Virus record (IMG/VR): IMGVR_UViG_3300021093_003813
Span: 36,968-100,967 of that record
Length of the DNA stretch: 64,000 bases
Direction: 5' to 3' (one strand)
Origin: a virus
The first letter of the stretch is position 1. Each line of letters begins with the position of its first letter. The notes beneath the pieces are model-generated. The model searched no databases. It was given only the letters and a program-made list of their open reading frames with translations, and was not told where the DNA came from. A program made the translations under genes and the position numbers. Positions 30,327 to 63,827 of the stretch are shown piece by piece.

Positions 30327-30900
30327 AGAAAGCCTTGTGTGTAATCATTGAAAATTTATCCTTCTCCACTTTGATGAAAGGTGAGTACTTGTGTATGGTT
30401 CTGGAGACAGAATTCCAAACTGGATCCAACACCAGCTGTTCATCCACCTCTGTAGTAAATCTATACAATTTATTTAGAATTACAAGTGTTTCCAACCGAC
30501 ATCTTTTACCACAATACTCCCTGAGAATCACAGGATGTCCCTGGGAACAATCCCAGGCATCTTCCAGAGTGGTGACATTCCAGGCTAAATTTTTCACATC
30601 TTGTGTGTAGGTGTAGGTCAAACTTTCCTGGATACGTTTCCATTCTGTGTAGATTTCTGGACCTGTGTTTTCAAAAATACCCCACTCATTACCATTCAGA
30701 AAATTGGCCACCAGATAGTTGATGAATTCATCCTGATTGTAATTGTATTGCTTCATCAACACTTCCAACTTCTTTTTGAAGTTGACCTTGACTCCTGACT
30801 TGGGAGGCCGAGGTGTGATGCCACTTCGGATGTCATAGTTGTCTGTGGTGAAGTGAAGCCGTAATGCAGTGTAAATCTTGTAAGCGTCAGATATGTTCAT
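30319..30900 (-). CDS. 59: Helicase loader gp59
   Basis: A 193-residue, basic, mostly helical protein; T4 gp59 is 217. DAYKIYTALRLHFTTDNYDI at the start, FINYLVANFLNGNEWGIFEN (about 59-78) and LVILNKLYRFT then LDPVWNSVSRTIHKYSPFIK near the end match the gp59 pattern. gp59 loads the gp41 helicase on gp32-covered forked DNA. The order gp33-gp59-gp32 is the same as in T4. Start and stop overlap the neighbours. Confidence 0.85.
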   Translation of the reverse strand: MNISDAYKIYTALRLHFTTDNYDIRSGITPRPPKSGVKVNFKKKLEVLMKQYNYNQDEFINYLVANFLNGNEWGIFENTGPEIYTEWKRIQESLTYTYTQDVKNLAWNVTTLEDAWDCSQGHPVILREYCGKRCRLETLVILNKLYRFTTEVDEQLVLDPVWNSVSRTIHKYSPFIKVEKDKFSMITHKAFYE

Positions 30901-31166
30901 ACAGGAAGTTTGGCGGTTTTCTTCAACAGATTCATTTCCTCGGCTTCTGCTTGTATCTTGGCCTTCAATGAACTGGTAATCATGGTGGCCACCGCCACAG
31001 GTTCTATCCCCTTTTGTTCACAGTATTCCAGAAGTGCCTCAAAACATCCAATGTTTCTTTTCACAGCTTCTCGTTCAATGTGTATGGAAAAATCTGTGGA
31101 ATTGGTGAACTCTCGTGTGATGAGATATTCCACAGTGAGAAGCTTCGGGTCTTGTTCATCAGTCAT
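30897..31166 (-). CDS. 33: Late transcription coactivator gp33
   Basis: An 89-residue protein; T4 gp33 is 112. The central FSIHIEREAVKRNIGCFEAL then LEYCEQKGIEP and the C-terminal LKAKIQAEAEEMNLLKKTAKL follow the gp33 pattern of marine T4-like phages. gp33 bridges RNA polymerase to the sliding clamp to activate late promoters, consistent with the TATAAATA sites in this window. It starts in an ATGA overlap with the lysin gene. Confidence 0.82.
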   Translation of the reverse strand: MTDEQDPKLLTVEYLITREFTNSTDFSIHIEREAVKRNIGCFEALLEYCEQKGIEPVAVATMITSSLKAKIQAEAEEMNLLKKTAKLPV

Positions 31167-33022: not shown

Positions 33023-34531
33023 TCATGTATCAGCGCAAGAACCACCGAAACATACCTGATTCTTAGCACAATCGTCATTATACACGCATGCCCCAGTAAC
33101 CACTGTTAGCGTGTCTACTCCATCTATTTCTGTAAGGTATTTTTCAATCTCTACTGTATCCAATTCACTTACTTCTTCATTATACACACCCAGATAATAT
33201 CCTGTGAAATACTTCTCATTTTTGGCATCAGTTGAGGTTATTTGAATCAGGTATTTTCCTACCACAACATCTTCAGTTGGTGCTACTGTTAGTGTGAGCA
33301 CTCCATCTGCAAAAGAACCAGACACCCAGGGAAGTTTTTTATAGAAATTGGTTTGAAGTTGACAATCCACATATTCTGCTGTTGTTATTGGTGTTGTTGT
33401 GGTGAAAGACAAGGTTGTGGTTTCTTGTTTTTTAACTGGGAACATGCTGAAGATGTTAGGACTCCAAATTTTTGTTCCGGCAATATACAGTGCCTTCACC
33501 AGACGGTTGGGTGTTGTTCCATAGATGGCTTCATTACGAAACAACATATCTTCTGCTGCATATTCCAACAACATATCCTTCAGTGTTTCAGCATCTGCTT
33601 CTGGATGTTGCTCAATGTATTGAGCTAGAACACCAGACACTACACCAGCACTGATGGAAGTACCTGAAACAGTTGCATAGCCACCATAGATGGAAGCTGC
33701 AGTGACATCTACGCCAGGAGCAGTTATGTCCACTTCAGGACCATAGTTGCTTGATAGTCCTGTAGCCCAAGACACCACACGGTCATAGGCATCTGATGCT
33801 GCTACACCAATAACAGTGTTCAATCCCACAGGAGATAGTGTGTCTGCTGCAACTCCAGTGTTACCTGCTGCAGCTACAACCACCAGTCCAGCATTTTGCA
33901 ATTCTGTTACTTTGCTGTCCAGCAATGCACTCTTGGGTACACTCCAGGAACAGTTCACAACTTTCACCACGTCGGGTGTGATTAAATGGTCTTCTAAAAC
34001 TGCATTGAATGCAATAAGCAATTTACCTATGGTGACTGAACCGAAAGGAATTTTCACACTTTTGATGGCGGCATTTCTAGACACACCAATAGTTTGACCA
34101 TTAATCACACTGGCAACAACTGTTCCGTGTCCTATAACATCAGAAAAATCTTCATTGAACGAATACAAGTGTTCAATGTTAGCTCCTTCGAATTCTGAAT
34201 GGCTATCATTCACTCCTGAGTCCATCAAATACACAACAGAATTATCTCCTTCAGAAATAGGATTGTATTTTTGTTTCATGGGAAGCGCATCTGTAACTAA
34301 GCGAAATTGATGCCACTCAGCATGAGATGTCACAGTTGTTTCTACATCCAGTTCAACTAGAATAACACCTTCAATAGATTCCAAAGTTTCTGCTGAAAAA
34401 TCATCTTCCACCTCTAGACCGATAACGCGAACACCTTCTAGATGATATAGAAGAGCGCCCTGAACGGTCAATGTTTCTAGAAGTGTTGTGGCACTGATGT
34501 CTGAAGAATAGGCAATATTAAATGTTTTCAT
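33023..34531 (-). CDS. Subtilisin-like serine protease (S8)
   Basis: 502 residues with a complete S8 triad: Asp104 in YLMDSGVND, His135 in IGHGTVVAS, Ser292 in SGTSISAG, plus Asn224 in AAAGN for the oxyanion hole. Residues 1-80 look like an inhibitor-type prodomain. About 350-480 is a beta domain. The last 25 residues hold four Cys (ACVYNDDCAKNQVC, then GGSC), probably two disulfides. There is no signal peptide. A late promoter and AAAGGAA precede it. It could be a virion-borne or maturation protease. Confidence 0.88.
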   Translation of the reverse strand: MKTFNIAYSSDISATTLLETLTVQGALLYHLEGVRVIGLEVEDDFSAETLESIEGVILVELDVETTVTSHAEWHQFRLVTDALPMKQKYNPISEGDNSVVYLMDSGVNDSHSEFEGANIEHLYSFNEDFSDVIGHGTVVASVINGQTIGVSRNAAIKSVKIPFGSVTIGKLLIAFNAVLEDHLITPDVVKVVNCSWSVPKSALLDSKVTELQNAGLVVVAAAGNTGVAADTLSPVGLNTVIGVAASDAYDRVVSWATGLSSNYGPEVDITAPGVDVTAASIYGGYATVSGTSISAGVVSGVLAQYIEQHPEADAETLKDMLLEYAAEDMLFRNEAIYGTTPNRLVKALYIAGTKIWSPNIFSMFPVKKQETTTLSFTTTTPITTAEYVDCQLQTNFYKKLPWVSGSFADGVLTLTVAPTEDVVVGKYLIQITSTDAKNEKYFTGYYLGVYNEEVSELDTVEIEKYLTEIDGVDTLTVVTGACVYNDDCAKNQVCFGGSCADT

Positions 34532-34541
34532 GAAAGTTCCT

Positions 34542-35132
34542 TTAAATGGTCGAAGTTTCTGTATTATTTATATCATTTATACCAAGCGCACCAACAGCCC
34601 AGGCTCTTTCCATACAGAAATAGCACCCACCACATCGTTTTAGTTTTCGTAACCCACAAGATTGTGTCAAACTTAACAAATCTAGTATATTATGCTCTTG
34701 ATATATTCTTAGTATTTCAATTTTGTCCAAATTGATGAAAGGTCGTATATGGTTTTCTGAACTCACTTCCCCTCGGATAGGAGGTGTATCTCCTTTAATA
34801 TACACGGTTGGAGTAAAATGAGTAACCACTTTGTTGCATCCTGTCAAAACTACTCCAGGATACACACTAAGAATATATTCAGCTGCTTCTCGAATAAGGA
34901 GTTTCTGTCTCCTGATGTTCACAACCTGAAACTTTCTTTCAAAACGTTGATCCAAATAATTTAAAATAGGAACAATCACATTCTGATAAACGTGTTTTGC
35001 AGGACTCAATGTATGTAAAACAATTGGTTTATTTGATTGTGTGGCCACAAGATACGCTAACAGCGTGCTGTCAGCTCCACCTGATATCAAAACATTGATA
35101 TGTTCAGCTTGTTCTGGAATAGTTATAATCAT
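34542..35132 (-). CDS. QueC-like PP-loop ATPase with zinc cluster (copy 1)
   Basis: 196 residues from the ATG at 35132; the open frame upstream lies inside the tmRNA and is not used. The PP-loop LISGGADSTLLAYL binds ATP for adenylation. The C-terminus has SCGLRKLKRCGGCYFCMERA, a C-x7-C-x2-C-x2-C pattern like the zinc site of QueC (7-cyano-7-deazaguanine synthase). No QueD, QueE or FolE is in the window, so preQ0 synthesis is not shown. A paralogue lies at 60347-60904. No Shine-Dalgarno is clear. Confidence 0.7.
   Translation of the reverse strand: MIITIPEQAEHINVLISGGADSTLLAYLVATQSNKPIVLHTLSPAKHVYQNVIVPILNYLDQRFERKFQVVNIRRQKLLIREAAEYILSVYPGVVLTGCNKVVTHFTPTVYIKGDTPPIRGEVSSENHIRPFINLDKIEILRIYQEHNILDLLSLTQSCGLRKLKRCGGCYFCMERAWAVGALGINDINNTETSTI
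34565..34572 (-). promoter_or_regulatory. Late promoter core for the subtilase
   Basis: Exact TATAAATA on the minus strand, 33 bases before the subtilase ATG, inside the last codons of the QueC-like gene. A second TATAAATG lies nine bases upstream. Confidence 0.7.
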
Positions 35133-35142
35133 AAAATTTAGT

Positions 35143-35400
35143 GGGGTTTTCTGTTCCCAGGGAAACCCCGAACCCGGCATGCTACCTAATTAGGCAGCTA
35201 ATGCAAGAGGCATATTATTTGTGCCTGTTGATGTTTTTGCTCTGCTTACGGCAGTCGCCTATCGGGTAGCTCTCTCATCTAATCCTTAACCTGTCGAAAC
35301 CTGTCATCCCCGAAATTGGTGTACCTGAATGGAGATGGAGGGAATCGAACCCTCGTCCAAGCCATGTTTCAATTTGAGCTGTTCTACTACCATCCTACTT
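35143..35400 (-). ncRNA. ssrA: Circularly permuted (two-piece) tmRNA
   Basis: On the minus strand the 3' (acceptor) half comes first: a T-arm GGACGAGGGTTCGATTCCC and acceptor strand CATCTCC with discriminator A at 35330. After only 18 bases comes the 5' half, beginning GGGGATG at 35311, which pairs with the acceptor over 7 bp (one G-U), then GGTTTCGACAGG, the tmRNA signature. The tag ORF (35240-35190) encodes AKTSTGTNNMPLALAA and a TAA inside a hairpin; ALAA is the proteolysis signal. CCA is not encoded. Hairpins follow to about 35143. tmRNA rescues stalled ribosomes. Outer ends are approximate. Confidence 0.88.
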
Positions 35401-35402
35401 AG

Positions 35403-36062
35403 TTATTTATAGGCTTCGTACACATCACGATAGTACAGCAATTGTTCCACGTGATGGTCTCGTTTGCTTTCAAACACTTGCATGAATCCATCTGACACAG
35501 CTATCAGAATGGTCAATCTGCTCACTGGTATCTTGGTGCGTTCTTCAAACATGATGGCATAGGCAGCCGCCTGCATGAAGTAATGTTGGATATGTTCCAG
35601 ATCCTTTTCTCGGCGTGCCGTTTTGAAGTCAATCACACTCAACTTGCCATCAAACTCAGCTATACAATCCACACGTCCTGCCAAACGTAGATGATGTGAC
35701 CACAAGGCCACTTCTTGTGCTCGAATGTTGTCAATTCTATCCAACACAGGATTGGCCACCTTGAACATTTCATAATCCCAAAGTGACAAATCACCACCAG
35801 ACAAATTGTTCTGAAGATACTTTTCTGTGATGGTGTGAAATCTGGTACCCCACGTGGCAGCTTGTCGCGACACTTTGTTGGCTTCCATTTCTCCCACTCT
35901 GGCTCTCCATTCCTGGATGCCTTGTTTGGTGTGCTCAGCCAACACTGTGGTGACAGATGGATAGAGCCTACCATCAGGTGTCTGATAGGCTCTGGTTCCA
36001 TCTTCCTGGTTCACAGCGGAAATGGTTTCTATTGTTACCGGGTCATGTAGGAATGTTTTCAT
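35403..36062 (-). CDS. PD-(D/E)xK exonuclease, MGME1/RecB-like
   Basis: A 219-residue protein with YPSVTTVLAEHTKQGIQEW near the start, GTRFHTITEKYL (about 72-83) and the nuclease core AGRVDCIAEFDGKLSVIDFK: Asp in RVD and D-x-K in DFKTA. A late QAAAYAIMFEE helix completes the RecB-like motif set. Marine T4-like phages often carry this nuclease; a role in host DNA breakdown or recombination is likely. The ATG follows a -10 box by six bases with no Shine-Dalgarno. Its last codons contain the tmRNA promoter core. Confidence 0.85.
   Translation of the reverse strand: MKTFLHDPVTIETISAVNQEDGTRAYQTPDGRLYPSVTTVLAEHTKQGIQEWRARVGEMEANKVSRQAATWGTRFHTITEKYLQNNLSGGDLSLWDYEMFKVANPVLDRIDNIRAQEVALWSHHLRLAGRVDCIAEFDGKLSVIDFKTARREKDLEHIQHYFMQAAAYAIMFEERTKIPVSRLTILIAVSDGFMQVFESKRDHHVEQLLYYRDVYEAYK
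35404..35411 (-). promoter_or_regulatory. Late promoter core for the tmRNA
   Basis: TATAAATAACTAAG on the minus strand, spanning the last codons and stop of the exonuclease. A start about 6-8 bases downstream would begin exactly at the 5' part of the tmRNA acceptor half. Confidence 0.65.
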
Positions 36063-36107: not shown

Positions 36108-36863
36108 TTAAGCCACAGCCATGCCCTCGCACGCCATTCTAGCCAGGATGTATTCCTTCACCAAGGGTCCACGAACAATGTCCTCCACCCCGAATTCCAC
36201 GTGACGGAAGGAAGGCATATGGTGAGCGATAATCATGAACTGCTTTAACCCGGACATATCTGACCGTTTCTGTAAATCTGTTTGGCGAAAATCACCACAG
36301 AAAATGATTTTGGTATTGGTACCAACCCGGGTCATGATGCTGTTCAGTTCCATGTCATTCATGTTCTGAGCCTCATCCACAATCACAATGCAGTTGTCCA
36401 AGGTCAACCCACGAACATAGGAAGTGACCATGAAATGAATTAAACTTTGTTCTTTCAGTTTGTTGTAGGCGCGTTCTCCAAATCTAGGGAACAAATCTGC
36501 GCAAATTTCTTGATAAGGTTGTGAATACACCTCCACTTTTTCTTTTTCATTGCCGGGAAGAAATCCAATATCCCGAGATGGTACTGCTGAGCGAACCACC
36601 ACCACTTTTTTGTAACCTGAATTTTCCAAAACCTCTTTGAAAGCGCTGTGCATAGCAATATAGGTTTTTCCTGTCCCTGCCACTCCATGACATAGAATGG
36701 CTTTGTGTCCTTTACGATAGTAGTTGAAAAAGTTCTCCTGATTTTCTGTGAGGGCCCAGATTTCTTTTAAATCTGAACCACGTACTTTGTGTTTGGATTC
36801 CTGATCCTCTTGAAGAATATAAGTTTGGGACGTGACCAACTTAAGGCGCTTTTTTCTGGACAT
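36108..36863 (-). CDS. phoH: PhoH-like ATPase
   Basis: A 251-residue protein with Walker A GVAGTGKT (60-67), RSAVPSRDIGFLPGNEKEKV typical of PhoH, Walker B IVIVDEAQN (159-167) and a sensor region IIFCGDFRQTDL. PhoH-like proteins are common in marine phages and act as ATPases linked to RNA or phosphate stress; the exact role is unsettled. The length matches phage PhoH, which lacks the KH or PIN domains of some bacterial forms. It lies just beyond a strong terminator. Confidence 0.92.
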   Translation of the reverse strand: MSRKKRLKLVTSQTYILQEDQESKHKVRGSDLKEIWALTENQENFFNYYRKGHKAILCHGVAGTGKTYIAMHSAFKEVLENSGYKKVVVVRSAVPSRDIGFLPGNEKEKVEVYSQPYQEICADLFPRFGERAYNKLKEQSLIHFMVTSYVRGLTLDNCIVIVDEAQNMNDMELNSIMTRVGTNTKIIFCGDFRQTDLQKRSDMSGLKQFMIIAHHMPSFRHVEFGVEDIVRGPLVKEYILARMACEGMAVA

Positions 36864-38756: not shown

Positions 38757-39995
38757 TTAAATGGACTGATACCATTCTGCTAGTTCTGGGAAAATGGTCA
38801 CGAATTTCTCGTTTCGTATCTCGTCCAACGACTCGTTGAACATTTTAAAGTCTTTCCATACAGTAGGGTCCACTTCATCATAATTAATGTAATTTCTGAT
38901 GATGTTAATATCGGGACCTACACAACTGTAAGGGGGCATAGTTTGTAATAGCACGTCGAGTTTTTCTTTGGCTTTTTTCTTTAAATCAACAGGTAATGCA
39001 TTAACATCCAGGAAATTATAAGAGCTGATGGGATAAAGAATAACGCTAGTTTTTTCCCAATCTAATACTCCAGAGGCATTTAGTGAGTGTAGGAATTCAG
39101 AAAGTGTCAGGATATTATAGACACTCACGACACAATTAATACCAACATTAACATGAGGTACGTTTTTCTTTATCTCTAAAATATTAGCCACCACTTCATC
39201 CCACTTAGTACCTTTTCTCATATACTCAGCTCTAGTACCAACTGAATCCAAACTAGCTCGAAAATCTACAGACTTAAATTTCTGCCATAAATCAATCACA
39301 TTATAGTGCTTGTGTGTTATAGTGCTGCAATTACTGCTATATCTGAGTTTCACATCGGTTTTATTTTCATTGATTAGAGTCTCTAACACCTCATAATGTT
39401 CTTCTGTCATTAAAGGTTCACCGCCAGCAAAATACATATGTTCTACACCATGTAAGTGAGATTTAAGATTTTCTAGAAATGTGGGGACCTCATTACTCAC
39501 ATGGCGCAAAGTAGGTAGTCCTGACTGTTCTCCATACTTTCGGTTTTCAGCTGCCCAACTGGTAGAGAATTCTTCAGAACAATAGCGACACTTGAAGCTA
39601 CAAAGATTACTAAATCGAACATCAAAATATTTTATATCAACTTCTTTGAGAGAATAATCATCATTGGTATTTTCTATAAGTGAGGGGGCATGGTGTCGAA
39701 ACATATCAAAACTAGCGTGTCTGTAATTGCGCCGTTCGGTGAGTTCTCGTGTATAGCATTGATTACATTGCGAAACAGGAGTACCCTCAACCATATTTTT
39801 TCGTAATTCACGATATTTCTCATTGTTCCATATTTCTTCAATAGAATTTTGTTTCACATTGCCTAACGACATTTCTTTCCTGGTAGTTTCTGCAATGCAA
39901 CATGGATATACATCACCGCTAGTATGTACATACATATGTGTCCATGGAAAAAGACACATGGTTTTATTTTCCATCACGAATAATTCTTTTTTCAT
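38757..39995 (-). CDS. Radical SAM protein, twitch type (copy 1)
   Basis: A 412-residue protein. The radical SAM cluster is NLCSFKCRYCSEE with Cys132, Cys136 and Cys139; FAGGEPLM (about 188-195) binds SAM. Before the core lies a Cys-rich segment (Cys14, CC at 32-33, QCNQC at 76-80) as in proteins with an N-terminal twitch/SPASM-like auxiliary cluster. Such enzymes do radical chemistry on peptides or small molecules; the substrate is unknown. It overlaps the carbamoyltransferase stop by four bases and ends the sugar cassette. Two more distant copies lie at 52849-55788. Confidence 0.85.
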   Translation of the reverse strand: MKKELFVMENKTMCLFPWTHMYVHTSGDVYPCCIAETTRKEMSLGNVKQNSIEEIWNNEKYRELRKNMVEGTPVSQCNQCYTRELTERRNYRHASFDMFRHHAPSLIENTNDDYSLKEVDIKYFDVRFSNLCSFKCRYCSEEFSTSWAAENRKYGEQSGLPTLRHVSNEVPTFLENLKSHLHGVEHMYFAGGEPLMTEEHYEVLETLINENKTDVKLRYSSNCSTITHKHYNVIDLWQKFKSVDFRASLDSVGTRAEYMRKGTKWDEVVANILEIKKNVPHVNVGINCVVSVYNILTLSEFLHSLNASGVLDWEKTSVILYPISSYNFLDVNALPVDLKKKAKEKLDVLLQTMPPYSCVGPDINIIRNYINYDEVDPTVWKDFKMFNESLDEIRNEKFVTIFPELAEWYQSI

Positions 39996-41443
39996 AGAAC
40001 AGTAACGTTATAAGTGTTTTCGAAAATCAAAGCATCCTTTCTGTCATTTACCATAGGCTTCCCTTTGACATTTAAACTTGTGTTCAACACCATAGGGCAC
40101 CCGGTTTCCCGGTACCATTCTTGCAGAAACTCATAAAAGTCAGGGGAGTCTGTCTTGGATACTGTTTGAACTCTAGAGGTGCCATCAGCATGAATGATGG
40201 CAGGAAAGGCTAGGGGTTGTTTACATAAAGCAGTATACTGCATATACGGCGTTTCAGCGGTGGGCATATGAAAATATTTATAAGCATGTTCAGCCAGAAT
40301 AGCAGGAGCAAAAGGACGAAACTTCTGACGCTTCTTAATGGCATTCACTGCATCCTTGATGTCATCACCGCGCGGATCCGCCAACAAACTTCTGTGACCT
40401 AACGCTCTGGGACCAAACTCAGCTCTGCCAGATGCTACACCGACAATTTTTTGTTTTTGTAAAGTTTCAATTAATTGTTTTGTGGGGTATTTTGTTCCCA
40501 TCTTGTGTCCAAGGTATGGTCCCTGCCAATTTAAAAACTCTTGTTGATAGGCCGCGATTGCTCCAAGACTATTACCCGCATCTCCTGGATTAGGCATAAT
40601 CCACACACAGTCAAAGTACTGAAAAGCTATACTGTTGGCAACACAGTTCAACGCACATCCTCCACCCAACACTAGATTTTTACTATCAGTCAATTTCTTA
40701 GCTTTATCCAACAAATCATGTAGATACAACTCATACACAAATTGTGTGGCTGCTGCAATATCATACATATCCTGTTGTGTGGTCAATTCAGGTCGCCACC
40801 AAAGGCATCCACGATGTAGATTATGAGTCAACTTCAATGTTTCTCGGGTATCAAAAAAATCTTCCAGAATAATAGAAGTGTATTTCAATGGGTCACCATA
40901 TGCTGCCATACCCATTAAGATGTATTCTTCTTCGTTTGGTTTCAGCCCCACCCGTTGTGTCATGGCAGAATACCACAACCCTAGGCTGTGTGGATATTTG
41001 ATAGAGAACTTCTTTTCCAGTTTCTTGCCCTGCCCATGCCAAATCGTTGTGGTATCAAACTCACCGATGGCATCTATCACCAACACAGCGGCTTCATCAA
41101 AGTTTGAGGTATAGTATCCACCTGCCGCATGGCTATTATGGTGGTCAACTGTTGTGATAGGCGCCGTGATGTTATAGCTATGTAGATATTGCTTGATGTT
41201 GTTGTTTATCCACCCCTGTCCAGCGCGCAATTGCCTCAACGATTTCATGAACGGGCGCTCATACCATACTACTAGGTCAGGTTCACCGTATTGTTTAGCG
41301 TCAGAAATAATTCCAGGGTTCAGGTGAGCATCATTTTTCACCCCTGAATATCGCTCAGATTGCGACGCAAATAATATGTCGCGGTCATTAATAACCGAGA
41401 TGGCTGCATCATGACTGTTGGCGGAAATACCCCATATTATCAT
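39992..41443 (-). CDS. Carbamoyltransferase, NodU/TobZ family
   Basis: A 483-residue protein, somewhat shorter than the usual 550-600. The N-terminal Kae1-like domain starts MIIWGISANSHDAAISVIND and has VDHHNSHAAGGYY (about 98-110) with metal-binding His, and LGGGCALNCVANS. The C-terminal YrdC-like part has GRAEFGPRALGHRSLLADPR and FRPFAPAILAE. These enzymes make carbamoyl-adenylate from carbamoyl phosphate and transfer the carbamoyl group to sugars or antibiotics. In this cassette a sugar acceptor is likely. Confidence 0.9.
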   Translation of the reverse strand: MIIWGISANSHDAAISVINDRDILFASQSERYSGVKNDAHLNPGIISDAKQYGEPDLVVWYERPFMKSLRQLRAGQGWINNNIKQYLHSYNITAPITTVDHHNSHAAGGYYTSNFDEAAVLVIDAIGEFDTTTIWHGQGKKLEKKFSIKYPHSLGLWYSAMTQRVGLKPNEEEYILMGMAAYGDPLKYTSIILEDFFDTRETLKLTHNLHRGCLWWRPELTTQQDMYDIAAATQFVYELYLHDLLDKAKKLTDSKNLVLGGGCALNCVANSIAFQYFDCVWIMPNPGDAGNSLGAIAAYQQEFLNWQGPYLGHKMGTKYPTKQLIETLQKQKIVGVASGRAEFGPRALGHRSLLADPRGDDIKDAVNAIKKRQKFRPFAPAILAEHAYKYFHMPTAETPYMQYTALCKQPLAFPAIIHADGTSRVQTVSKTDSPDFYEFLQEWYRETGCPMVLNTSLNVKGKPMVNDRKDALIFENTYNVTVL

Positions 41444-43631: not shown

Positions 43632-44570
43632 TTATAGGTTTGTGAAATTTCTATTATTATGGGTTATAACAACTTGATATGCATGTATTAACTGTTTGAT
43701 TCCATAATTTAAATCAAAGGCAGGACGCCATCCTAACTTTTCCAGTTTCTCGTTGGACACGATGTAATTTCTCTTATCAAAATCTTCCTTGAACTCATCT
43801 TGTTTAATGACCAACGAAGGGATATACTGCTTAATTTTTTCTGCTAATTCTAGCTTGCTCAAGTTGGCTGTTGAAAGCCCCACATTAAACGCCTGCCCTT
43901 TACATTTATCATAGTTTTCAATCACAAATTGAAACGTTCTCGCAATATCCTGAACATGGATATAGTTTCGTTTGAAATGCCCCTCAAACAAGACCAAATA
44001 TCCATCGACGATGGATTTGTATACGAAATCGTTTACCAATAGGTCTTGACGCATTCTTGGTGAAACGCCAAACACCGTTGCTAAGCGTAGTGAAACTCCA
44101 TTGCCATTTCTTAGCATAGCAGATTCAGCATCGCATTTGGTTTCTGCATATAGTGACAAAGGTTTGAATGGGCTTTCTTCGGTTATGATATGCTCGGATG
44201 ACCCATACTGACTATTGGTGTTAGGGAGAATCAATTTCTGAACGTCTGTCAGCACAGCTAGTATGTTTTCAATCTGTTTATAGTTTACATCAATAGTTAA
44301 CTGGGGATTCTTTTTACATGCCGGCATCCCTACAATTGCAGCTAATGGAATAATCACCTCATGTTCCTTTACTAACTTTTGTAACAAAGAAACATCACGC
44401 ACATCACCTAACATGAATTGGAAGTTTGGGTTCTTGAAAAGATGCAGTATGGATATTTGTTTGTACAACAAGTTATCTAGAATGGATACACTATACCCCG
44501 CCGATAATAGATGCTCGGCTATAGTAGAACCTAAATATCCCGCTCCTCCTGTGATTAATACCTTGGTCAT
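43632..44570 (-). CDS. NAD-dependent sugar epimerase/dehydratase (intact SDR)
   Basis: A 312-residue extended SDR. The Rossmann motif is LITGGAGYLGSTIAE (GxxGxxG); catalytic Ser-Tyr-Lys appear in TNSQYGS and YAETK (YxxxK). RLATVFGVSPRMR and NYIHVQDIARTFQFVIENY are the usual substrate-side segments. It acts on a nucleotide sugar with NAD(P), for example 4-epimerisation; the sugar cannot be named. It is the only one of the three neighbouring SDRs with a standard active-site Tyr. Confidence 0.85.
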   Translation of the reverse strand: MTKVLITGGAGYLGSTIAEHLLSAGYSVSILDNLLYKQISILHLFKNPNFQFMLGDVRDVSLLQKLVKEHEVIIPLAAIVGMPACKKNPQLTIDVNYKQIENILAVLTDVQKLILPNTNSQYGSSEHIITEESPFKPLSLYAETKCDAESAMLRNGNGVSLRLATVFGVSPRMRQDLLVNDFVYKSIVDGYLVLFEGHFKRNYIHVQDIARTFQFVIENYDKCKGQAFNVGLSTANLSKLELAEKIKQYIPSLVIKQDEFKEDFDKRNYIVSNEKLEKLGWRPAFDLNYGIKQLIHAYQVVITHNNRNFTNL

Positions 44571-44612
44571 ATCTTAAACCCCAAAAAATTTGTCTTGATG
44601 TGTGTAAAAACA

Positions 44613-45587
44613 TTATCCCCTAAATTCATCTTTATGTCTCAGATACCAATCATGGGTTTTAAGTAATCCATCTTCTAAACTCGTTTTCGCTTCCCAACCC
44701 AATAGTGTCTTGATTTTGCTAGAATCAATTTTTCTTACCGGTATCATGGAAGGTTTACCTTGAACATATTCAACAGGATTGGAATTGTTGACTAACTGTT
44801 TCATCACATCAAGCACCTCGTTCACCGAGTATACTTTGTTAGACCCCACATTGAAAACATCATAAGTGTTTTGCTGTTCCATGATTATTTGAATAGCCTC
44901 TACAAAGTCATCAATATACACTAAATCTCGCAGTTCTGAACCATCTCCCCATATGGGAATAGGATTCATGTTATCAGCCACTTTTCGTATAGTTGCAGGC
45001 GTTACATGGCATTTATTAAAGTCAAATTTATCATGAGGCCCATATAGATTTGCTGGGCGCACCACAACTGTTGTCATGGGATTTGGTAGATACTTAGCGT
45101 ATAGTTCGCATTGTACTTCAGCATATCGCTTCATCCACCCTACAGGAAAATACACGGGGTATGGTGGGTCAAACAGAAAATCGGATTCTGTTACAGGCTC
45201 ATCGCCCTTAGGCGGGTAGACTGTATTAGAAGAAATAAAGATGTACTTTTTAATTTTGTTGCGATAAGAACTGTCAATTAAGAAATTGTTCATTGCAACG
45301 TTGGGTGTTACATGCGCTAGAGGGTCAACAACCGTGTCTACAGCATTAGATGTGCTGGCAGCTGCATGTATAACAACATCTACACCCTTTGTGATGTTTA
45401 GGCATGTTTCATAGTCCATTAAATTCCCATGGACATATGTTACTGAGCTAAGAGGATTTCGCACCCTTCTTTTGTGCAAATGCACGACAAGATTTGTGTA
45501 TCCTTGCTCTACTAATCTATTTGTTAAATTTTGTCCAACTAATCCTGAACCACCGGTTATTAAAATCTTCATATCTTTGGTCATCAT
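44613..45587 (-). CDS. SDR sugar epimerase/reductase-like, catalytic Tyr replaced
   Basis: A 324-residue extended SDR with LITGGSGLVGQNL at the start and RPANLYGPHDKFDF and LRDLVYIDDFVEA later, a layout like GDP-L-fucose synthase. At the catalytic place one expects YGWxK; here the chain reads PVGWMKRYAE, so Tyr is Val. Lys is kept. It may be inactive, use another residue, or serve as partner of the neighbouring SDR. A late promoter and GGAGAG lie upstream. Of two adjacent ATGs either could start. Confidence 0.8.
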   Translation of the reverse strand: MMTKDMKILITGGSGLVGQNLTNRLVEQGYTNLVVHLHKRRVRNPLSSVTYVHGNLMDYETCLNITKGVDVVIHAAASTSNAVDTVVDPLAHVTPNVAMNNFLIDSSYRNKIKKYIFISSNTVYPPKGDEPVTESDFLFDPPYPVYFPVGWMKRYAEVQCELYAKYLPNPMTTVVVRPANLYGPHDKFDFNKCHVTPATIRKVADNMNPIPIWGDGSELRDLVYIDDFVEAIQIIMEQQNTYDVFNVGSNKVYSVNEVLDVMKQLVNNSNPVEYVQGKPSMIPVRKIDSSKIKTLLGWEAKTSLEDGLLKTHDWYLRHKDEFRG

Positions 45588-45621
45588 TACTCTCCATACT
45601 AAGTTATACTAAATACATATC

Positions 45622-46605
45622 TCATTCGTCTAAAAAAGACTTGTAACTATTTATAGAGGCTTTTATACCGTCATATAAACTAGTTTTAGCTGCGATGTTG
45701 TATTTTTTCTGGTTTTCAGTGCTTAACAAACGAAGCAGGTCCCCATTAGGCTTAGAGGTATCCCATACGATTGTCCGAACTTTCCCAGCACATTCCTCAT
45801 ATGCTGAAACAATGGTTTCAATAGTATCTTTAATCGTGATGGCTTCACCACAACCAAAATTTATAACATCATTTACTTCATATCTCACGACATCTAAAAT
45901 TCCGTCTGCAACATCCTCACTAAACACAAAATCTCGACGCGGTGAACCATCACCCCAACAAATCATATCACCTTCAGTATTGAATGCCTTCCAGATATTA
46001 GAACTTATCACAGTAGCATCAGGAGAGAAATTGTCGTTGGGTCCATAGATGTTGGAAGGTCTGATTATTGACCATTTTTTCCAGCCATACTGGACTTTTA
46101 AAGAATCTAATGCCAATTCGCCCATTCTTTTTGCCCAACCAGGATGCCAATCATTTTTAGATGGCATGGTTTCCCAAACACTATCCTCATACATCACTTC
46201 AGCAGGGCTATATACACCAACTGACGAGACATAGACAAACCATTCGACACTAGCTTCGAACGAGGCTTTAATCATGTTTGTATTGAACATCAACATTGGA
46301 AACACATAATCAGCAGGGCATTTGGCTGTTCTAGATGGAGACCCCTTGACACCGGCAACGTGCAATACAATGTCAACTTTTTCTTTTCGGAACAATTGCT
46401 CACAATTATGATAGTACGTCAAGTCTGTTTCCAGTAATTCTATCACACCAGAAGAATCTACTGCCATTCTAACCATGCGGTCAGAAAATTTCAAATCTAC
46501 TGCATATACTTTTGTTGCACCAGCTTCAACACACTTTCTAACAGTCGGCATACCAACTAGACCATTGGCGCCAGTTACTAGTACAACTTTATCTTTAAAT
46601 TCCAT
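45622..46605 (-). CDS. SDR sugar epimerase/dehydratase-like, catalytic Tyr replaced
   Basis: A 327-residue extended SDR: VVLVTGANGLVGMPTVRK, FVYVSSVGVYSP with the catalytic Ser region, RPSNIYGPNDNFSPD and RRDFVFSEDVADGI. The expected YGWxK reads HPGWAKRMGE, so the Tyr position is Pro. It shares GW-KR-E spacing with its neighbour at 44613-45587, which suggests one subfamily or a tandem pair. It overlaps the gene before it by 11 bases. Confidence 0.8.
   Translation of the reverse strand: MEFKDKVVLVTGANGLVGMPTVRKCVEAGATKVYAVDLKFSDRMVRMAVDSSGVIELLETDLTYYHNCEQLFRKEKVDIVLHVAGVKGSPSRTAKCPADYVFPMLMFNTNMIKASFEASVEWFVYVSSVGVYSPAEVMYEDSVWETMPSKNDWHPGWAKRMGELALDSLKVQYGWKKWSIIRPSNIYGPNDNFSPDATVISSNIWKAFNTEGDMICWGDGSPRRDFVFSEDVADGILDVVRYEVNDVINFGCGEAITIKDTIETIVSAYEECAGKVRTIVWDTSKPNGDLLRLLSTENQKKYNIAAKTSLYDGIKASINSYKSFLDE
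45648..45655 (-). promoter_or_regulatory. Late promoter core inside the cassette
   Basis: Exact TATAAATAG on the minus strand, 60 bases before the SDR gene starting at 45587, inside the last codons of the SDR before it. It shows that part of the cassette can be read late. Confidence 0.6.
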
Positions 46606-62096: not shown

Positions 62097-62805
62097 CCAG
62101 GTGAATTCTTTCCACTTCATATCCCACGTCCCTCCCATAGTAGACACCGCAGATGTTGGGTGCTTGAATGACGATATATTTATTATGATATTCCTGAAGG
62201 GCTTCATTGATACCTCTCACCACATCTGCATACTGGAATGGATTCTTTTCATCCAACCCATAAGTATCACGAACCATAATCATCACTTGTCCCTGCTTTT
62301 CCAAAATCTTTTCAAATAACTTTTTATGCCCATCATGAAAAGGTTGGAATCTGCCAATCATCAATCCTGTAGGCTTCTGGGATTGAAATGCCACACCCAT
62401 GTTGATTCTCCACATGATGTCCTTGACCTGTTGTTCCACATCTCCCCATGCGGTAACTTCATAATCAGGATATAGGGGGCGTTCAAACACCTTGTTGGTG
62501 TCCTCAAATCGTCCTTCTTGAATGGTGTTCATGAACACCACAAAGTCAGCAGAAAAACGCCGGCGAGTTTGTTCTGTGGGACACACAAAGTCTGCCACCA
62601 CATGCTTCTGGTAATCTTCTGCCACCCAAGCCAGGTCTGCCATGCGTTGGGCTTGGCGAACTCTCCCTTCTTCTGTGAAATCCCAATCATTGTATTGTTT
62701 GCGAACATCATCTGCATTCAAGTAAACAGCATTCAACTTGTCTGCCAACACCTTTGCCAACGTGGACTTGCCTGACCCAGGTAGTCCCATCACTAGAATT
62801 CTCAT
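62041..62805 (-). CDS. Kinase-nucleotidyltransferase fusion (APS kinase-like + NMNAT-like)
   Basis: 254 residues from the ATG at 62805, which overlaps the purA stop as ATGA and has GGAGG five bases upstream. Residues about 1-135 are an APS kinase/AAA_33-like P-loop domain (GLPGSGKST, 7-15; NADDVRKQYND). Residues about 147-254 are a cytidylyltransferase-like domain with GRFQPFHDGH (151-160) and ISATDIRKKM at the end, as in NMN adenylyltransferases. The domain order differs from NadR, where the kinase is C-terminal. NAD or sulfate nucleotide chemistry is possible. Confidence 0.78.
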   Translation of the reverse strand: MRILVMGLPGSGKSTLAKVLADKLNAVYLNADDVRKQYNDWDFTEEGRVRQAQRMADLAWVAEDYQKHVVADFVCPTEQTRRRFSADFVVFMNTIQEGRFEDTNKVFERPLYPDYEVTAWGDVEQQVKDIMWRINMGVAFQSQKPTGLMIGRFQPFHDGHKKLFEKILEKQGQVMIMVRDTYGLDEKNPFQYADVVRGINEALQEYHNKYIVIQAPNICGVYYGRDVGYEVERIHLDAETESISATDIRKKMAQ

Positions 62806-63827
62806 ACTCCCTCCGGAGTGGTGGACCATATTATTGTATTCAATTCTGAACGATAATGCCACTTGATGGTGTCTTCCACAAATTGCTTGAATGCGGACAC
62901 CGTGTCAAACATATGGCGGGTGCCACGAAACACCACACCAAACTTCCCTACTTGTTGCATCACATCCACTTTGTTGATGATGAGGTCTGTGACATCATTA
63001 ATATACATGGCTTGAATCACGCCGTCAAGATGCATCCAACGCACCTGGCGCTTTCTGCCAGTAGTGGCACCAAATTCTTCACCTGCCACTTGTATCTGGT
63101 CCAGAACATCCTGGTCACCCTTGTCATTGAATGTCTTGAAGCCTGAATAGGTTTCGTACGCCTTCATGATGCCATACACGTTCCTCCAGGTTCTGGGAGG
63201 TACACCATTCAATGCCACAGCACCTGAGGTGCAATGTGAACTGGTGACATAGGGATAATCACCCCAATCAATGTCAATCTGGAATCCTTGTGCACCTTCA
63301 CACAACACCGTCATCTCACGATTATCACCATGAAAATAGCTGTAGGTGTCCACCATGTCATAAGGCAAATCCCAGCTGTTGTATTTCAACACTTCTTTGA
63401 TTCTGGTACCTGTTCGGGCATACTTGTCACGATAGGTGGGGCCAATTCCTTGCTTGGTGGTGCCAATCTTGGTGTCTTTGCCATCTTCTTTCAGATGTTT
63501 CTCCAAGGTGACATGGCAGCGAGCATCAATCATGATGGGTGCTTTGAATCCCAAGTTTTCCAACATCTCAATTTCATCTCGGAGTTTGGGAAGATTCACC
63601 ACACATCCTATGCCAATGATGCTGGGAATCCCGTAGAACACACCCACTGGCACCTGGTGTGTGACCACTTTCTGTCCGTTATGATAGATGGTATGACCTG
63701 CATTGGCTCCGCCATTGTATCGGAGCACAGCATCATACTTGTAGGTCTTGGCCAGCCAATGAGATACTTTGCCTTTGCCTGTGTCACCTGCTTGTAAATC
63801 CACCACAATATCTGCATGACGAATCAT
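62802..63827 (-). CDS. purA: Adenylosuccinate synthetase, short phage/archaeal-size form
   Basis: A 341-residue protein, about 90 shorter than E. coli PurA and near the archaeal and PurZ size. LQAGDTGKGK keeps the catalytic Asp (Asp15) but has Thr in place of the following Glu; NAGHT supplies the catalytic His45; IGTTKQGIGPTY, VLCEGAQGFQIDIDWGDYPY and EFGATTGRKRQ (aspartate loop) are present, with STTPEG at the C-terminus. It joins IMP and aspartate using GTP. Retained Asp argues against PurZ (dGMP-using), where I recall Ser. AGGA precedes the ATG. Confidence 0.88.
   Translation of the reverse strand: MIRHADIVVDLQAGDTGKGKVSHWLAKTYKYDAVLRYNGGANAGHTIYHNGQKVVTHQVPVGVFYGIPSIIGIGCVVNLPKLRDEIEMLENLGFKAPIMIDARCHVTLEKHLKEDGKDTKIGTTKQGIGPTYRDKYARTGTRIKEVLKYNSWDLPYDMVDTYSYFHGDNREMTVLCEGAQGFQIDIDWGDYPYVTSSHCTSGAVALNGVPPRTWRNVYGIMKAYETYSGFKTFNDKGDQDVLDQIQVAGEEFGATTGRKRQVRWMHLDGVIQAMYINDVTDLIINKVDVMQQVGKFGVVFRGTRHMFDTVSAFKQFVEDTIKWHYRSELNTIIWSTTPEGV

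Follow-up and report, generated by a model that had tools for sequence, protein, structure and literature searches.

Is the sequence downstream of an exonuclease gene in a T4-like aquatic virus a working tmRNA gene of the phage itself and, if so, when would it be used and how was it acquired? The window, the 64,000-nucleotide stretch of DNA analyzed here, comes from a virus record of 100,967 bases. The gene content is typical of T4-like myoviruses, with baseplate wedge and hub, tail sheath and tube, major head protein, prohead protease, a gp32-like SSB, a helicase loader, and gp33. Among isolates, Pelagibacter phage HTVC008M, Methylophilales phage Melnitz, and T4-like cyanophages come closest by gp6 and gp32. 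Phage-encoded permuted tmRNAs are already known: in one survey, 53 of 133 unique phage tmRNAs were permuted, 50 of these 53 from aquatic phages (PMC9004378), a recent database holds 79 phage tmRNAs (PMC11915505), and our pattern scan of IMG/VR returned at least 119 stretches. The late promoter, the corrected tag, and the block exchange described below are additions, giving this member of a catalogued class a probable time of use and a case of part swapping between viruses.

We consider it likely that 35143-35398 on the minus strand (Table 1) holds a working tmRNA gene of circularly permuted form that belongs to the phage, an inherited locus of the T4-like lineage that is transcribed late and tags stalled products with GTNNMPLALAA. 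What the analysis shows is the fold, the covariation, the tag frame, the late-promoter motif, the synteny, the absence of SmpB from the records searched, and the lack of an encoded CCA.

Table 1. Features of the tmRNA locus and its neighbors (window coordinates)
Feature	Position	Strand	Basis or remark
Permuted (two-piece) tmRNA precursor	35143..35398	-	RF04321, RF01850, covariation; 5' end placed from promoter, 3' end from last hairpin
Acceptor piece	35330..35398	-	Structure, covariation; exact mature 5' end putative
Helix 2 strand GGTAG, acceptor piece	35391-35387	-	
T-arm	35354-35338	-	
3' acceptor strand CATCTCC	35337-35331	-	Pairs with GGGGATG 35311-35305
Discriminator A	35330	-	A after CTCC in all aligned sequences
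Spacer TTCAGGTACACCAATTTC (18 nt), presumably excised during maturation	35312..35329	-	Sequence
Coding piece	35143..35311	-	Models, structure, covariation
5' acceptor strand GGGGATG, then GGTTTCGAC	35311-35305	-	
Helix 2 strand CTACC, coding piece	35269-35265	-	
Tag frame, GGC resume codon to TAA stop (GTNNMPLALAA)	35190..35225	-	Relatives' frames, ARAGORN
3' pseudoknot, GGGGTT/AACCCC with CCGGG/CCTGG	35143..35178	-	Pairing across 18 sequences
T4-type late promoter TATAAATA	35404..35411	-	Motif enrichment, conservation; predicted transcription start near 35398
QueC-like PP-loop protein	34542..35132	-	PF06508 27.4 bits (cut-off 22); phrog_1550; start codon 35132 putative
PD-(D/E)XK exonuclease, upstream neighbor	35403..36062	-	phrog_298 226 bits; PF12705; synteny conserved
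PhoH-like ATPase	36108..36863	-	PF02562 164 bits; synteny conserved
gp33-like late-transcription coactivator	30897..31166	-	PF16805 60.7 bits (cut-off 25); phrog_254

Identity and structure of the permuted tmRNA

Searches with Rfam covariance models identified a tmRNA on the minus strand. RF04321 (tmRNA_permuted) matched 35391-35190 at 111.1 bits (cut-off, 47), untruncated and covering model positions 1-213 of 213, and RF01850 (beta_tmRNA) matched 35436-35123 (-) at 93 bits (cut-off, 84). A preliminary description of this DNA had proposed a phage-encoded, circularly permuted tmRNA, with the acceptor half preceding the 5' half, an 18-nt gap, and a 7-bp acceptor stem, and had named a covariance-model search as the check. 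In line with this, both halves fit one permuted tmRNA arranged as proposed. That description had also singled out the spacer as very short, which does not set this gene apart, as other viral permuted tmRNAs often have spacers of 5-9 nt; the spacer is the most variable part of the gene. ARAGORN missed the window gene and calls it in the clade relatives tried, so that ARAGORN-based surveys can miss such genes.

The structure was further assessed on 18 aligned sequences (the window and 17 relatives) with 500 shuffles and slid controls. The proposed structure was paired in 89.6% of cells, and 43 two-sided changes were observed against a shuffle mean of 14.3, a number reached in 0 of 500 shuffles, with the shuffle tests being inflated by sequence kinship. 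Pairing and covariation lay above all 500 shuffles, and the slid controls, which preserve kinship, were all far lower, bearing out the proposed tmRNA. Compensation was seen at three places: one of the 7 acceptor-stem pairs switches jointly from CG to UA, two T-arm pairs change on both sides together, and the coaxial helix on the T-arm side (helix 3) has three pairs with two-sided changes. In contrast, helix 2 (GGTAG/CTACC) did not vary across the 18 sequences and is therefore uninformative on covariation, for or against. In the 3' pseudoknot, 91-93% of cells were paired, with few informative changes. The single-strand fold of the window gene was not unusual relative to shuffles (z, -1.10); covariation was taken instead, since single-sequence folding is thus uninformative. 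The acceptor stem contains the G3-U70 alanine identity pair, with U-G in 18/18 aligned sequences. The CCA end is not encoded in the window clade, which has CTCCATTC or CTCCACTT there instead, so its addition would fall to a host enzyme.

Resume codon, tag, and partner proteins

The tag first proposed for this gene, AKTSTGTNNMPLALAA, proved correct in its ALAA end and wrong at its N terminus, where it is five residues too long. Its GCA start (35240-35238) was rejected as the resume codon: one extra base between GCA and the ALAA frame puts it out of frame in L017, L052, and L074, and the codon after GCA is a stop in L016. With a GGC or GAC start after [T/C]AANN, each of the 18 aligned sequences has a tag that ends in ALAA, and the same rule gave an open, ALAA-ending tag in 7/7 held-out relatives, which had not been used in forming it. 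ARAGORN independently chose the same start in relatives, with tags GTYNTPLALAA, GAYNAPLALAA, GTFNSPLALAA, DNNYMSFATSYALAA, and others. The 1-nt indels and the in-frame stop in relatives, together with these calls, indicate that the resume codon is GGC (35225) and hence that the window tag is the 11-residue GTNNMPLALAA, the right peptide for mass spectrometry. Other tmRNAs with glycine and aspartate resume codons are known (PMC1168896). At position -5 from the resume codon, the window has C and the other 17 aligned members have T. This position contributes to frame setting in E. coli, and tagging accuracy in the window may for that reason be reduced.

SmpB (PF01668) had no match in the window's record, which is probably incomplete, or in 16 others; self-sufficient trans-translation with a phage SmpB was thus not encountered in these 17 records. 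Neither the ClpX zinc-binding domain nor SspB was found in four records tested. A phage bringing its own SmpB, SspB, or ClpX is therefore unsupported in the records searched, so that the partners of the RNA must come from the host. One could imagine that the RNA acts as a decoy or modulator, vying with the tmRNA of the host for SmpB, AlaRS, or ribosomes and damping host trans-translation without tagging efficiently. The absence of a phage SmpB match in 17 records and the change at -5 would suit this role, and the tag-less tmRNA of phage DS6A is reported to inhibit endogenous tmRNA in E. coli (PMC11915505). However, the tag frame is open and ALAA ending in 25 loci, even though indels occur upstream of it and the tags are of two types. 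A decoy would not require this, and we regard the role as quite improbable.

A late-promoter motif precedes the gene

NATAAATA is established as the late-promoter sequence in T4-like phages and in cyanophages. In the window, TATAAATA was seen 10 times against 2.03 expected, and a gene start, often that of a structural gene, follows within less than 70 nt for over half of the NATAAATA sites. One such site is located 12 nt before the tmRNA model start, a distance that matches in 17/17 aligned relatives. The ATAAATA core is invariant in 18/18 aligned clade members, with differing flanks, and the motif lies 8-12 nt before the RNA in all 7 held-out relatives. A T4-type late promoter is expected to consist of TATAAATA/NATAAATA a few bases ahead of the transcription start, with no -35 required, and at the level of the sequence motif the site here conforms. 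The possibility that TATAAATA is a mere by-product of an upstream stop codon was rejected, as the motif is fixed while upstream sequences and frames differ between loci. Conservation of NATAAATA directly before the gene predicts that the tmRNA is expressed late, so that what had been a guess about late infection is now backed by a promoter motif; the gp33-like coactivator gene in the window also speaks for this reading. Its presence in 25/25 loci examined makes the timing, late and during virion production, testable. We found no report of late-promoter control of a phage tmRNA in the open-access literature.

This timing is at odds with the early use proposed by the authors of the Melnitz study, in which tagged host proteins would be degraded and their amino acids recycled (PMC9004378). 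TTGACA-17-TATAAA does precede the Melnitz tmRNA, but NATAAATA is the sole promoter motif in the window clade, and a search of the minus strand near the window gene turned up no sigma-70-like site, making early tagging very unlikely here. Many cyanophage-type permuted tmRNAs are preceded by TTGACA together with a TATA-type -10. The Melnitz tmRNA is also immediately preceded by TATAAATA (upstream of 46013), and TTGACA lies 17 nt further upstream, so that the site could act as both a sigma-70 and a late promoter.

Probable inheritance of the locus

A set of 43 relatives was retrieved with PhoH. In the window, the order is PhoH, exonuclease, and tmRNA, and genes for gp33, the helicase loader, and SSB follow at a distance of 4-6 kb on that strand. 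Melnitz has PhoH, a PDDEXK nuclease, two small ORFs, tmRNA, gp33, helicase loader, thyX, and SSB, and HTVC008M has PhoH, exonuclease, an unannotated permuted tmRNA (145161-145370), and a late-promoter transcription factor. Among viral contigs with enough DNA downstream of PhoH, the tmRNA was present in 29/31 loci where PhoH was at least 70% identical and in 0/4 at 48% identity, which argues for inheritance within the phage lineage. Its occurrence at the same place in HTVC008M and Melnitz likewise indicates an inherited phage locus and gives no pointer to the bacterial host. The host-group hint that the preliminary description drew from the permuted form therefore does not hold: a locus common to Pelagibacter (alpha) and Methylophilales phages tracks phage descent, and the models split a single phage clade into beta-like (RF01850) and alpha-like (RF01849) tmRNAs, so that an origin in Betaproteobacteria is not established. 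The alpha-like tmRNA of Melnitz has been taken to indicate a host transition (PMC9004378), but it could alternatively reflect common descent of the phages. Since SAR11 and Methylophilales phages have this locus in common, tmRNAs can be inherited with the phage, and the alpha or beta look of phage tmRNAs is not simply a record of the host or of a host jump.

It is highly improbable that the gene was recently acquired from a host ssrA locus, perhaps as a passive integration remnant: although host ssrA genes are common integration sites and prophages hold fragments of them (PMC9004378), here the gene is whole, no integrase lies among the neighbors examined, a host-type promoter is absent, the locus is conserved in the T4-like lineage, and the phage core motif was unmatched in 84,980 bacterial and archaeal genomes (exact patterns only). 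In BLAST searches of phage and plasmid sequences, the gene gave only short matches in the conserved core.

The QueC-like gene, which starts 10 nt past the tmRNA, is probably cotranscribed with it, and a subtilase-family (S8) peptidase gene (33023-34531) lies just downstream of this pair. The QueC-like gene (34542-35132), a GTP cyclohydrolase I, and a weak 4Fe-4S (radical-SAM-type) match, the last two located at L160:9731-10465 and L160:10455-11360, are possible 7-deazaguanine DNA-modification genes. The window also encodes NodU-like carbamoyltransferase and nucleotide-sugar epimerase-like genes (39992-41443 and 43632-46605) and a phage adenylosuccinate synthetase (62802-63827; PF00709, 256 bits).

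Relation to known permuted tmRNAs

Melnitz (MZ577096; PMC9004378) resembles the window in its PhoH-PDDEXK nuclease-tmRNA order, its permuted gene form, the lack of a phage SmpB, and an ALAA-ending tag (ANDNYVPVDYALAA in Melnitz). In contrast, Melnitz has a longer spacer, an encoded CCA, an Ala resume codon, a sigma-70-like -35/-10 before the tmRNA, and a glutamine riboswitch downstream, whereas in the window the spacer is 18 nt long, CCA is not encoded, the resume codon is Gly, the late promoter stands alone, and Rfam models gave no riboswitch match. HTVC008M (KC465899, 145161-145370) shares the location after PhoH and the exonuclease, the permuted form, and an ALAA-ending tag (ANFNEYALAA) but differs in its alpha-type match, encoded CCA, and lack of NATAAATA in front. 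Its tmRNA is unannotated in GenBank and partially overlaps the hypothetical CDS AGE60528.1.

With the betaproteobacterial two-piece tmRNA (RF01850), the window shares the two-half layout, acceptor stem, helix 2, 3' pseudoknot region, and resume context (UAAAU, then GNN). The window's score lies above the family cut-off by only 9 bits, however, CCA is lacking, and the tag is not ANDE-like; across the window clade, the resume codon is Gly or Asp, and some members match RF01849 instead. The cyanophage-type permuted tmRNAs in IMG/VR (e.g., L003 and L012) are likewise phage encoded and permuted, without an encoded CCA, but have a sigma-70-like TTGACA and TATA-type -10 in front, and the L012 tag is of the ANNIV type.

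Exchange of parts and possible loss of the gene

The window and L041 are identical in the promoter flank (23/23) and 3' end (47/47) and match in 60/62 positions of the body, and they differ in the T-arm, acceptor strands, and spacer (22/29, 6/21, and 8/12). L065 and L120 show the same pattern; some contigs are possibly assembly joins, and the members of both pairs are separate records. L017 and L074 are alike in 61/62 positions of the RNA body, with different tag types. From these comparisons, relatives exchange a block of ~55 nt comprising T-arm, acceptor strands, and spacer as a whole. Because the permuted gene form places the two acceptor strands no more than ~55 nt apart from end to end, one short tract can replace the whole pairing unit.

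In L131 and L038/L153, distinct deletions share a 5' breakpoint within the tag and take away ALAA, the stop, and the 3' pseudoknot; these could be real deletions or assembly joins. Because two related loci are deleted through the tag and 3' end, the tmRNA gene may be dispensable.

Proposed function

Processing, charging, rescue activity, timing, and the fate of tagged products are predicted from sequence as follows. Transcription from the NATAAATA promoter would occur late and depend on the phage late-transcription machinery. Host tRNA-processing enzymes would excise the 18-nt spacer, leaving two mature pieces held together by the acceptor stem and helix 2, and the host CCA enzyme would complete the acceptor end. 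Host AlaRS would then charge the phage RNA via G3-U70 and, with host SmpB and EF-Tu, the tmRNA would enter ribosomes stalled on truncated mRNA. The appended GTNNMPLALAA would direct the stalled product to ClpXP-type proteolysis, and the freed ribosomes would resume late virion-protein synthesis. Host tmRNA stays stable during T4 infection (PMC9697503), which fits a continuing need for rescue during translation of phage mRNA.

A broader scheme, which we think unlikely, is a late phage quality-control branch in which phage-specific tags beginning with Gly or Asp, from the late-promoted tmRNA, lead to proteolysis with a phage ClpP-like subunit and the permuted form allows the acceptor/T-arm block and, separately, the tag to be exchanged by short tracts with pairing intact. 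A ClpP-like protease is encoded in another part of the record, at L160:1562-2158 (record G000:C1:1562-2158) (-) (phrog_1827, 211 bits; PF00574, 34.9 bits); any link between it and the tag is speculative. It is distinct from the prohead protease, and its Ser, His, and Asp positions are consistent with a catalytic triad. The protein had no match in Melnitz or HTVC008M and is kept in a 178-kb relative (G001:C1:148654-149028). A peptide deformylase gene adjoins the ClpP-like gene.
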